62,935 bases of DNA, from assembly GCA_003164715.1 (NCBI GenBank), contig PLTZ01000092.1, positions 1 through 62,935 on the forward strand, written 5' to 3'. The DNA is from Opitutaceae bacterium (lineage in GTDB: Bacteria > Verrucomicrobiota > Verrucomicrobiia > Opitutales > Opitutaceae). Both the position numbers and the translations under genes were made by a program. The notes under the pieces were generated by a model, which did not search any database, was not told the DNA's origin, and was given only the letters and a program-made list of their open reading frames with translations. How positions within the stretch are numbered: the first letter of the stretch is position 1; each line of letters opens with the position of its first letter. Positions 53,470 through 56,307 of this stretch are shown piece after piece.

Positions 53470-53493
53470 GGGGGCAGGGTGGAGGAAAGCCCC

Positions 53494-54198
53494 ATGTGCG
53501 TCCGCTACACCCTCCACAAGACCGACGCGGCGCTCGGCGCGATCTCGAAGGCGCTCGGCGTCCTCTTGGGGACGCCGGACTGGGCCGTCCCGCGCTTCAA
53601 CGTGTCGCTTACGAGCACGATGCCCGTGGTGGCGCTAGCCGGGGGCGCTCCCGCCGTCCGCCCGATGCGCTGGGGGCTCGTGCCGGAGCGGGAGCGCGCG
53701 AGCCCGAACCCCCGCCTCCTTGCCAACGCGCGGGCCGAGACTGCGGCCAGGATGCCGGCGTTCCGCAAGGGTGTCGCCGCCAGGCGATGCCTCGTTCCCG
53801 CGAACGGGTTCTATGAATGGAAGGAGAAGGGCGGCGTCAAATGGCCGCATCTTTTCACGCTTGCGGGCGAGGAGCCCTTTGCGTTCGCCGGGATTTGGGA
53901 CCCGGCGGGCGAAGGCCTGCCGGAGACCTACTGCATCCTGACGACCGACCCCAACGAGCTTGTGGCGCAGGTGCACACCCGGATGCCCGTCATCATGTTG
54001 CCGGAGACGATGCCGCGGTGGCTCGGGGATCGGCCCCTTGAGGAGGACGAGCTCAAGCGCCTCGTTCGCCCGATCGATGCCGCGCGAATGGCGTCTAGGC
54101 CTGTGAGCCGATTCGTAAGCAACAGCCGGAACGAGGGGCCGGAGTGCCTTGCACCGCCGGCTGGCCTGAATCCCGAGCCTGAGCTCGATTTCGGCTAG
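53494..54198 (+). CDS. SOS response-associated peptidase (SRAP/HMCES/YedK-like)
   Basis: 234 residues. The start is set by the catalytic Cys2 (MCVRYTLHK; the usual form is MCGRY) and by GGAGG 8 bases upstream. Other SRAP residues are present: NARAET, the active Glu in ANGFYEWKEK and the His in QVHTRMPVIM. Family members trap abasic sites in single-stranded DNA through a thiazolidine link to Cys2. Stand-alone after the xyl operon. Confidence 0.93.
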   Translation: MCVRYTLHKTDAALGAISKALGVLLGTPDWAVPRFNVSLTSTMPVVALAGGAPAVRPMRWGLVPERERASPNPRLLANARAETAARMPAFRKGVAARRCLVPANGFYEWKEKGGVKWPHLFTLAGEEPFAFAGIWDPAGEGLPETYCILTTDPNELVAQVHTRMPVIMLPETMPRWLGDRPLEEDELKRLVRPIDAARMASRPVSRFVSNSRNEGPECLAPPAGLNPEPELDFG

Positions 54199-54263
54199 CT
54201 AAGGAGCACGGCGACCATTTGGGTTTTTCTTGGGAATAGATGTTTTCATATAATTAAATGTTT

Positions 54264-54293
54264 AAGTTGACATATGATTATAATTATCAACTT
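54264..54293. promoter_or_regulatory. AT-rich operator/promoter upstream of the mystery A/B pair
   Basis: Perfect inverted arms AAGTTGA (54264-54270) and TCAACTT (54287-54293) with a 16-base AT-rich centre. A TTGACA box (54267-54272) overlaps the left arm; TTATAC (54292-54297) is a possible -10 but with 19-base spacing. It is likely bound by the HTH protein encoded next. Confidence 0.5.
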
Positions 54294-54301
54294 ATACGTT
54301 T

Positions 54302-54700
54302 ATTAATAGACGACAATTTCAGGTTTTAAGTTTAAAACATCTCTCTGAGCAACTTACCTCCCGGAAGCCTGTTTGGGAGCTGCAGAATCCCTCCGGCGGC
54401 TGGCTGAGGGCGCTCCGACAAGCTCTGGGTTTTAGCCTTAAGTCAGTCGCCAGGCGGCTAAAGCTGTCTCCACAGTCGATTCATCAATTTGAAAAGTCCG
54501 AAGCTGTTGGCTCCATAAGTCTCAGGCAGCTCGAGGCAGTGGCGGGCGCCATGGGGTGCCGGGTCGTCTATGCCATTGTGCCGCGCCGAGGGACTCTCGA
54601 AGAGCTGGCCAACGCTGAAAGGCACGAGGCGCTCCAAGCCGTGCAGCACTCCATGTCGCTTGAGGGCCAAGCCGTTGAACATCCTGAGAAACTACCGTGA
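54302..54700 (+). CDS. Mobile mystery protein A (HTH, antitoxin-like)
   Basis: 132 residues if initiated at the ATT at 54302. No ATG, GTG or TTG is available in frame between the preceding stop and the conserved region. The protein is clearly real: QFQVLSLKHLSEQL is followed by NPSGGWLRALRQALGFSLK, an HTH with SVARRLKLSPQSIHQFEKSE and LRQLEAVAGAMGCRVVYAIVP. This is the XRE-type mobile mystery A family, always found with the Fic-type protein B. ATT initiation is rare, so an ATG-to-ATT mutation is possible. It probably represses its own AT-rich promoter. Confidence 0.8.
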   Translation: MNRRQFQVLSLKHLSEQLTSRKPVWELQNPSGGWLRALRQALGFSLKSVARRLKLSPQSIHQFEKSEAVGSISLRQLEAVAGAMGCRVVYAIVPRRGTLEELANAERHEALQAVQHSMSLEGQAVEHPEKLP

Positions 54701-54716
54701 TCCGGGGCTTGGGGGA

Positions 54717-55316
54717 ATGGCAGACCCATTCCGCGCGCATCTTGGCGACATCCTCCTGACCGATGACGAGAAGCGGGGGCTCATCCCGAGCATCTCGACC
54801 CAGCGCGAGCTCAATGAGTTCGAGTTTTCCAATATCATGTCCGCGCGGGATTGGGCGCTGAGCCTGCGGCGGCTCAACAAGGCGGAGATCCTCAACGTCT
54901 CCTACCTACTCGAGCTCCATCGGCGTATGTTCAACGCGACATGGCGTTGGGCGGGACATTTCCGGACAACAGAGAAGAACATAGGCGTTGAGCCGCACCG
55001 TATCGGCCCTGACGTGGCCAGCCTGCTTGGAGACACGCAATACTGGATCGAAAACCGCGTGTATCCTGCAGACGAAATCGCGCTGCGATTCCATCATCGC
55101 CTGGTCGGCATCCATCCCTTTCCTAACGGAAATGGCAGGCACGCGAGGCTCGCTGCCGACATTCTTGCCCTGAAACAAGGCCGGCCGGCATTTCCATGGG
55201 GGTCAGGAACGGCGGAGCCGGCAAACGTGAGGCAGGCATACCTGGGTGCCCTGCGTCGCGCGGACAACCAGGACTACCAAGCCCTCTTCCAGTTCGCGCG
55301 GTCGCGGAAGCCCTAG
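54717..55316 (+). CDS. Mobile mystery protein B (Fic domain)
   Basis: 199 residues from ATG 54717, 16 bases after gene A. The Fic signature HPFPNGNGRH (residues 133-142) followed by ARLAADI is intact, with Asn in place of the usual acidic residue before GNG. The N-terminal part reads LIPSISTQRELNEFEFSNI and RRMFNATWRWAGHFRTTEKN. Fic enzymes transfer AMP or other nucleotides to proteins, and this pair behaves as a candidate toxin-antitoxin or mobile regulatory module. Its stop shares CTAG with the convergent rhomboid-like gene. Confidence 0.88.
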   Translation: MADPFRAHLGDILLTDDEKRGLIPSISTQRELNEFEFSNIMSARDWALSLRRLNKAEILNVSYLLELHRRMFNATWRWAGHFRTTEKNIGVEPHRIGPDVASLLGDTQYWIENRVYPADEIALRFHHRLVGIHPFPNGNGRHARLAADILALKQGRPAFPWGSGTAEPANVRQAYLGALRRADNQDYQALFQFARSRKP

Positions 55317-56152
55317 CGGCTGGAGGCCCTCCGGGCCAGGTACTCCCGGGCCGAGTCGAGCTTTGCCCGCTCCTTCGGCGTCAGGCTCGCCATCCCCGAC
55401 TGCGCGATCTTGTCTAGGAGTGCGTCAATCTCGGCCATCGGCTTGCCCTTTGCGGGGCTTGCGAACGGATTTCGGCTAGCCTTGGGCATGGGCTCCTCGT
55501 CGGACCCCTTCGGGAGCGCAAACTGCCCGATTCGCGGGAGCTCAAGCATCCCCTGCTGGTGGCGAATGAACGCAAAGGCAAAGGCGACCGTGGCCCAGAG
55601 CGAGAGGAGCCCGAGCCAGTCGCGGCCGGCAAGCTCCATCAGCGAGCATATGCCGACCAGGATCGCCGCCACCCACTTCGCCATCAACCCGAAGAACATC
55701 ATGGCGCCGGGATAGAGCGTCGCGAAGGCGACGAAGAGGGCGAACGCTCCGACCTCGCCCGCGAGCTGCGTCGGAATCCAGATGCTGAGCAGCGTGAAGA
55801 GCAGCGGGGGCAGGAGGTAGATGCAGCAGTAGAATCCTAAGAACTTCCCGCGACCCAGGAACTTCTCCACCTCCCGGCCGAACGAGGCAATCATGGCTAT
55901 GTTGATCACGAACCAGAGGCTCGGCGGGTTCCACAGCCCGTAGGTGGCGACGCGCCACACCTCACCCTTGAGGACATCAGCGCCGTAGAACGGGAGCCAC
56001 GAGACGAGATGCGTGTCCCCGAGGAACAGGGCGATCGAGGTGGCGACCATCGACAGGGTGAAGACGAGCGCCAGGAAATACGCCGCATACACGGGGTATC
56101 CGCGCAGCCACATGACCGGCTGTTGTTCATCCTGGGTGCCAAATTCGTTCAC
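55313..56152 (-). CDS. Rhomboid-family membrane protein lacking the catalytic Ser, with DUF6576-like tail
   Basis: 279 residues from a GTG at 56152 (ATG 56113 is an alternative). Six helices resemble a rhomboid core: WRVATYGLWNPPSLWFVINI in the first loop and FLGFYCCIYLLPPLLFTLL. The catalytic GxSG is replaced by GEVGAF, and no helix-six His-containing motif is seen, so this is probably an inactive pseudoprotease. The cytoplasmic tail (EIDALLDKIAQSGMASLTPKE) is the short helical domain found on rhomboids of this phylum. Confidence 0.75.
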   Translation of the reverse strand: MNEFGTQDEQQPVMWLRGYPVYAAYFLALVFTLSMVATSIALFLGDTHLVSWLPFYGADVLKGEVWRVATYGLWNPPSLWFVINIAMIASFGREVEKFLGRGKFLGFYCCIYLLPPLLFTLLSIWIPTQLAGEVGAFALFVAFATLYPGAMMFFGLMAKWVAAILVGICSLMELAGRDWLGLLSLWATVAFAFAFIRHQQGMLELPRIGQFALPKGSDEEPMPKASRNPFASPAKGKPMAEIDALLDKIAQSGMASLTPKERAKLDSAREYLARRASSR

Positions 56153-56307
56153 GGTTTCGGGGTACGGAAAATGGCCGCGACGGCAGCGGCCCGCAAGCGG
56201 GGAAGGGTCTTTTTGCAGGCGCAGCCCCGGTATTGACACGCAACTTACGCGGGATGCGCGGCATGCGAGCGGCTGCGCCCGCGCAGCGGAAGGCCGTACC
56301 GCCCCGG

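Follow-up and report, generated by a model that had tools for sequence, protein, structure and literature searches.

An ATT codon as the probable weak start of a mobile-mystery-A-like gene in an Opitutaceae bacterium

Introduction

How is a gene translated when its reading frame is intact and no ATG, GTG or TTG stands at its head, or has such a gene already died? The question is raised by a helix-turn-helix (HTH) gene, here gene A, which precedes a Fic gene, gene B, on contig PLTZ01000092.1 of an Opitutaceae assembly (92 contigs, 98.8% complete). The whole stretch of DNA analyzed, 62,935 nt, is referred to as the window. A first-pass annotation of this DNA had noted the intact gene A with none of the three standard starts, and we confirmed that observation: the sequence, the frame and the ATT at 54302 are all as described. 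The same annotation offered two explanations, that ATT is used and keeps the protein scarce, or that the start was lost by mutation. From a comparison with relatives, we conclude that ATT probably serves as a genuine though weak start codon here and is more than mere damage. Comparative sequence evidence gives good support to the use of ATA, ATC or ATT (collectively ATH) as starts in the Opitutaceae family of these genes, and ATT is likely a used start in the window gene itself; of the two explanations, the first has support in the family and is the more probable one for the window.

Results

The module lies between an SRAP gene on its left (53479-54198) and a convergent gene on its right (55313-56239, minus strand), whose sole Pfam match is DUF6576 and which we read as a rhomboid-like membrane protein. 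Between these neighbors, an AT-rich leader is followed by gene A (54302-54700, plus strand, 132 codons and a stop) and gene B (54717-55316, plus strand), and both frames are intact. GC content rises from 22% in the leader to 56% in gene A and 61% in gene B, against 67% for the window, a composition that fits an origin of leader, A and B as a transferred module. Gene A scores 107.5 bits against TIGR02612 (mobile mystery A), under the curated cut-off of 122.6, and we therefore call it mobile-mystery-A-like; TIGR02612 matches over the cut-off occur in just 3 of 384 genomes of the class. It exceeds the cut-off of 23 for HTH_3 with 32.2 bits, the HTH stretch being residues 35-88. Gene B, a Fic protein with the motif HPFPNGNGRHAR, matches TIGR02613 (mobile mystery B) with 228.1 bits, over the curated cut-off of 124.4, and Pfam Fic with 47.5 bits. 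The window therefore has an HTH gene directly upstream of mobile mystery B, as the TIGR02612 pair does, and the first-pass picture of an AT-rich leader and an HTH-Fic pair set in GC-rich DNA was borne out.

The ATG of gene B starts 16 nt past the stop codon of gene A (54698-54719) and has G-rich sequence ahead of it. A 4-nt overlap between the stop of A and the start of B is the arrangement at 24 of 41 loci; the window departs from it, and this departure counts against the explanation that we prefer. In a six-gene ATH clade, described below, the B start lies 11-14 nt ahead of the end of the A stop codon. At its other end, the stop codon of gene B overlaps that of the convergent neighbor (55313-55316). 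An AAGGAG that resembles a Shine-Dalgarno sequence (54202-54207) follows immediately on the stop codon of the SRAP gene; it leads to no standard gene start and is perhaps a remnant of an earlier neighbor at the insertion point. Among 12 other genomes of the genus, the right-hand neighbor gene was found in two. The named records in which gene A has close relatives belong mostly to Opitutaceae, Opitutus, Opitutae or Verrucomicrobia, mostly as metagenome assemblies, with a few from Hyphomonas and Bdellovibrionia, and viral contigs gave a single weak relative. Among solved structures, 27 distinct chains match gene A, in its HTH part, and 35 distant Fic chains match gene B. A structure model of protein A is good in the HTH core (blocks of pLDDT 89-98) and of low confidence in the N-terminal (3-19) and C-terminal (99-123) helices; because both terminal helices are poorly modeled, the model is used here as support for nothing.

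The frame of gene A opens after a TAA at 54281-54283, and the earliest standard start codon in it is the GTG of codon 80, by which point most of the HTH stretch has passed. The presumed start, ATT at 54302-54304 (plus strand), aligns with the ATG of the three nearest relatives on the tree (L033, L034 and L035), which also share its spacing to an upstream TTGA element. The first-pass claim that only ATT at 54302 fits was therefore correct as to the site, where the relatives have their ATG, and too strict in that ACG at 54296 is a second near-cognate codon in frame; we prefer ATT because the relatives' ATG aligns with it. Alignment with other mystery A genes, which the annotation had proposed, gave a divided answer: ATG at the same site in these three relatives, one of the two signs by which the annotation would have recognized a dead gene, and ATT, ATC or ATA there in seven other genes. 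The window gene is the sole ATT member of its subclade and is only 51-54% identical to L033 and L035 and 52% identical to L034, so a recent loss of the start has to be weighed for the window.

To survey start codons across the family, we collected 99 distinct gene-A frames and left out those below 105 bits, together with four in which the script found no start within its range (L041, L037, L092 and L100) and one with short upstream sequence (L098). On reading, L041 and L037 begin with ATG, and L092 and L100 start at contig ends. The final set held 65 genes, 55 from Opitutaceae and 10 from outside. For standard starts, a script took the ATG closest to the aligned place or, failing that, the closest GTG or TTG; the eight ATH starts were assigned by visual inspection of the alignment and supplied to the script afterward. 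Among the 55 filtered Opitutaceae genes we counted 39 ATG, 4 GTG, 4 TTG and 8 ATH starts, the last comprising three ATT (the window, L002 and L010), two ATC (L047 and L057) and three ATA (L048, L050 and L056). The 10 outsiders have nine ATG and one GTG. Pseudomonadotal plasmid copies, of which 10 of 236 matching records were read, have ATG at or near the aligned place in nine cases, and the tenth, from Vibrio, has its annotated start at an ATG farther upstream. The first standard in-frame codon of the eight ATH genes comes at codon 14, 20, 29, 29, 35, 38, 38 and 80. One of the other ATT genes, L002 on contig C79, belongs to a second mobile mystery A/B pair in the same genome as the window.

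On the 65-protein tree, ATH requires three changes, all of them forced by starred branches. Shuffled labels required 7.7 changes on average, and none of 500 shuffles was as low as three, a comparison that asks only whether ATH is clustered on the tree. Six ATH genes from one genus (L002, L047, L048, L050, L056 and L057) form a clade with support 100/99 that is ATH throughout; its start codons have an invariant AT at bases 1 and 2, with A, C or T and never G at the third base. The window gene and L010 are each placed among genes with standard starts. An AUU, AUC or AUA codon kept in relatives, the mark of a conserved non-canonical start, is thus found in the six-gene clade, and the window gene is a lone case in its subclade; its ATT is one instance of a recurrent pattern.

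Purifying selection extends to the very beginning of the genes in the six-gene clade. Gene A there has a pN/pS of 0.42 over codons 2-32 and of 0.38 beyond codon 32, and all 15 pairs give a pN lower than pS in each region; the overall value is 0.39, and gene B of the same clade gives 0.41 (15 of 15 pairs). These values, like those for the window below, are averages over long branches with high pS, in which a recent gene death would stay invisible. Variable columns in codons 2-33 number 23, 16 and 30 of 32 at positions 1, 2 and 3, a third-position excess (30/32 vs 39/64 at positions 1 and 2, Fisher p 0.0006) that has no counterpart in the 60 bases upstream of ATH (p 0.75). In L002, L047 and L057, three of the six, an in-frame TGA directly precedes the ATH codon, so an upstream in-frame start is impossible there. 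A clade with only ATH starts, purifying selection and preceding stops indicates that ATH starts can be long-lived, and purifying selection on the other ATH genes means that an ATH start alone does not mark a dead gene. The window gene with its three relatives has a pN/pS of 0.43 overall, 0.57 in codons 2-30 and 0.40 after them, with pN below pS in 6 of 6 pairs overall and in each region.

The layout of the leaders resembles a series of operators that runs up to the start codon. Averaged over the 55 Opitutaceae leaders, palindromes are centered at -8, -39 and -70 bp (z 8.7, 5.4 and 4.6 vs shuffles), with a spacing of 31 bp and the last palindrome ending at the start codon; high values also occur at other centers of these AT-rich leaders, e.g. 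z 4.9 at -13.5 and z 4.7 at 1. In the window the nearest putative operator is clear: the palindrome CAACTTATACGTTT (54288-54301, plus strand, center -7, 5 of 7 pairs) holds a TATA box and ends directly before the ATT. The second (54256-54270, plus strand, corresponding to the family palindrome centered at -39) is degenerate and retains one half only, the right half TAAGTTGA, recognized by reading. The 7-bp operator dyad of the first-pass annotation is accordingly present as an inverted repeat and needs to be redrawn: it is 8 bp long (TAAGTTGA at 54263-54270 and TCAACTTA at 54287-54294), sits within a 22-nt inverted repeat that is 82% complementary and, set against the relatives, joins the right half of one operator to the left half of the next.

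A -35-like element, TTGACA, occupies 54267-54272 (plus strand; -35 to -30 relative to the ATT). Of the 55 leaders, 39 have a TTG whose first base is at -35 or -36, and in all eight ATH genes it is at -35. TATA starts at -10 or -9 in 24 of 55 Opitutaceae leaders, which, compared with a textbook -10 element, is somewhat too near the start codon for an mRNA beginning there. A simple consensus scan returned no plus-strand promoter at the leader. No stretch of four or more bases of the Shine-Dalgarno sequence AAGGAGGT was found at -20 to -5 in 50 of 55 Opitutaceae leaders; the other five, one of which belongs to the ATH gene L047, have four bases of AAGGAGGT at most. Among the 10 outsiders, five members of other families in the phylum have AAGGA to AAGGAGG, a sixth outsider has AGGT and the remaining four lack any such sequence, and the absence of a Shine-Dalgarno sequence is therefore not peculiar to Opitutaceae. 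We infer, tentatively, that the promoter lies under the operators and that the mRNA would be leaderless or nearly so.

The C terminus of protein A suggests what it may do to its partner. Codons 54650-54667 (plus strand) encode SMSLEG, which matches the Fic inhibition motif (S/T)xxxE(G/N); in the accessible text of PMC3667792, this motif is the signature of a helix that blocks Fic active sites and occurs in antitoxins encoded directly upstream of Fic genes. Window A has both features of such class I antitoxins, the motif and a position directly upstream of Fic. Across the family, 41 of 55 A proteins end in a region with the pattern [S/T]-[M/V/L/F]-x-[L/M/I]-E (the tail of L007, for example, is SMALEG), with the residue after Glu being G or N, as in the strict motif, in 28, D in 7, A in 5 and E in 1. 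Five of 55 have the motif without the Glu, and nine of 55 lack the motif; these nine genes all have standard starts and no B was found beside them. Protein A is best read, from its domains and motif, as an autorepressor and a Fic antitoxin in one protein. Our literature search, conducted largely without subscription papers, found no account of mobile mystery A as a Fic-motif antitoxin, and two family surveys do not name it in the portions available.

Any gene B was found in 41 of 55 loci, and a script-readable Fic motif in 38. The motif of window B, HPFPNGNGRHAR, keeps the fixed letters of HxFx(D/E)GNGRxxR and has N at the D/E place, which departs from that signature and is shared by 36 of the 38 readable Opitutaceae motifs. 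Four of the six loci in the ATH clade have another residue in place of the catalytic His (Arg in L002, L047 and L050, Gln in L048; L056 and L057 keep the His), and the inhibitory Glu is lost in all members except L048. Those five are the only Glu losses among 46 motif-bearing A genes. L002, for instance, has the Fic motif RPWFNGNGRHAR, without the catalytic His, and SMALQE in its A protein. The His is lost in 4 of 8 ATH loci vs 0 of 30 others, with a Fisher p of 0.00095 (38 readable loci) that overstates the association because all four losses fall in one clade. The window pair and L010 are free of these losses: they retain both the Glu and the Fic His, and the ATT start is their only departure. 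Separately, L034, which has a normal ATG start, carries the changed Fic motif HLFPNSNGLHAR, so Fic-site damage is not confined to the ATH clade.

We also looked in the window genome for signs that its translation machinery accepts ATH. The infC gene of this genome, considered as an in-cell example, reads TTG then ATG at its start and offers no such control; since infC has ATG, this cell has no known working ATH start, a point against the explanation that we prefer. An initiator tRNA carries three G-C pairs. A search for a dedicated ATH initiator tRNA with a 13-base initiator motif, the first anticodon base being left open, gave no match in the window genome (G000). Of 13 genomes in the genus, two yielded three matches between them, and the reversed control pattern matched twice; L196 is a tRNA-Met(CAT), and L197 (CAT) and L195 (GAT) lie within no ARAGORN tRNA. 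Among 38 tRNA matches of the window genome that were read (30 loci and 8 fetched), an incomplete set, two are Met(CAT), neither of which shows the three G-C pairs on reading, and none has an Ile anticodon.

Discussion

The account that we favor, at moderate confidence for all of its parts jointly, takes the ATT at 54302 as the real weak start of a live gene A. In Opitutaceae modules the start codon directly follows an operator-like palindrome with no Shine-Dalgarno sequence, the mRNA would have little or no leader, and in three separate lineages ATT, ATC or ATA has replaced the standard start. Protein A would bind the operators and repress its own operon, and its C-terminal SxxxE(G/N) helix would block the Fic site of B. 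A weak start would keep A low, so that repression settles at a higher mRNA level. The further proposition that this is a stable, repeatedly evolved setting of repressor dose, for an autorepressing Fic antitoxin initiated at AUU, AUC or AUA on a leaderless or nearly leaderless mRNA with no Shine-Dalgarno sequence, is one we advance tentatively and regard as doubtful. If the stable setting were true, it would contradict the strong AUG preference of leaderless initiation in E. coli.

The strongest competitor, possible although we put it somewhat below even chances, is that selection on the start has relaxed: once the Fic partner becomes inactive, the demand for antitoxin would fall, the strong start would disappear, and A would persist as a weakly made DNA-binding protein in which ATH is tolerated. 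The concentration of His losses in ATH loci, and the confinement of Glu losses to the six-gene clade, speak for it, and the loss of His in four and Glu in five of these six loci indicates a relaxed demand for A there. This association depends on that one clade, however, with a p-value that is too strong; the window and L010 combine ATT with an intact Glu and Fic His, L056 and L057 keep their His, and A and B of the clade are still constrained (pN/pS 0.39 and 0.41). Weak start, lost Glu and lost His may belong to a single course of events, the toxin function fading while both proteins are retained for another purpose.

For the window alone, it is conceivable but unlikely that the start was lost recently, that gene A is dying and that B is made from its own site. 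ATG in the three nearest relatives would be expected if this were so, as would the separate ATG of B 16 nt after A with its G-rich approach. Yet the 132-codon frame is intact with its HTH and SMSLEG, pN/pS with the relatives is 0.43 (albeit a long-term average), and seven other genes have ATH; moreover, B keeps its Fic motif, so that an unchecked B might harm the cell.

Translation of A from elsewhere appears improbable, be it from a codon farther downstream, from a near-cognate codon upstream or by frameshifting after initiation at an upstream ATG. The window does offer two ATGs out of frame, at -44 and -28, together with a TTG at -35, all three in frames that extend beyond the ATT, as well as the ACG at 54296, but TGA directly before the codon in three ATH genes, two of the eight with no overlapping out-of-frame ORF, and the conserved N-terminal codons argue against it, and a downstream standard start in the window would delete most of the HTH. 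An upstream ORF or frameshift shared by the family was considered and rejected, as none is common to the eight ATH genes. Sequencing or assembly error, which the mostly metagenome-assembled records of the relatives might bring to mind, is very improbable, given the same class of change in eight contigs of seven genomes, with the records for six of the eight spanning at least three projects (palsa isolates, ERR1022687 and LacPavin).

Used non-canonical starts have precedents against which the favored reading, a weak but functional ATT, can be set. According to the available portion of PMC13009471, conserved non-canonical starts in S. aureus include AUA in infC, AUA in the repressor gene ccpN and AUU in cvfC1, with lowered initiation measured for ccpN and cvfC1, and AUU is cited there as the start of E. 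coli pcnB. As in those genes, insofar as that source describes them, ATH here replaces ATG in a regulator and low translation is expected; unlike in them, the identity of the codon shifts within one clade. The S. aureus infC, ccpN and cvfC1 sites all have an extended Shine-Dalgarno sequence in that text, whereas here there is none and the operators abut the start codon, and the lack of this hallmark of conserved non-canonical starts counts against our explanation. So does leaderless initiation in E. coli, with a strong AUG preference that is less marked in some other bacteria, as far as the accessible part of PMC9031893 describes it. In vitro, codon bases 1 and 2 must pair, and at base 3 weaker pairs are tolerated to a degree while mismatches give very little product (excerpted text of PMC10158994), rules that agree with AT plus any third base and with a low yield. 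Our search found no work combining leaderless mRNA, an AUU start codon and repressor autoregulation.

Mobile mystery A/B (TIGR02612/TIGR02613) shares with the window the gene order, the HTH and Fic domains and the C-terminal S/T-M-x-L-E motif of A; the window differs in scoring under the TIGR02612 cut-off and in its ATT start, the plasmid copies (10 of 236) using ATG. VbhA/VbhT, as presented in the accessible sections of PMC3667792, is alike in having the antitoxin gene upstream of fic and the (S/T)xxxE(G/N) motif, and unlike in that A has an HTH domain and that N fills the D/E place of the published Fic signature here; the likeness is one of sequence, from which inhibition of B is predicted. 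Phd-Doc likewise places a DNA-binding antitoxin ahead of a Fic/Doc toxin, but Phd supplies missing helices of Doc by fold complementation (PMC2686095, in the part available), in place of which A bears the SxxxE motif. The motif match thus offers a testable role for mobile mystery A, that of a DNA-binding repressor with a Fic-inhibiting helix.

Gene finders that take only ATG, GTG and TTG, as did the ORF listing used here, miss or shorten such genes, and the partner Fic then seems an orphan. If ATH starts work with no Shine-Dalgarno sequence, these genes would be natural, repeatedly evolved test cases for ribosomal start choice. Two gene-A relatives carry an additional domain: L042 (344 aa) and L058 (342 aa) have a fused C-terminal HEPN_AbiU2 domain (PF18734, 32.9 and 41.9 bits, cut-off 26.8), which, judging by its name, we take to be a domain from an abortive-infection protein, and both still have a Fic gene behind them.
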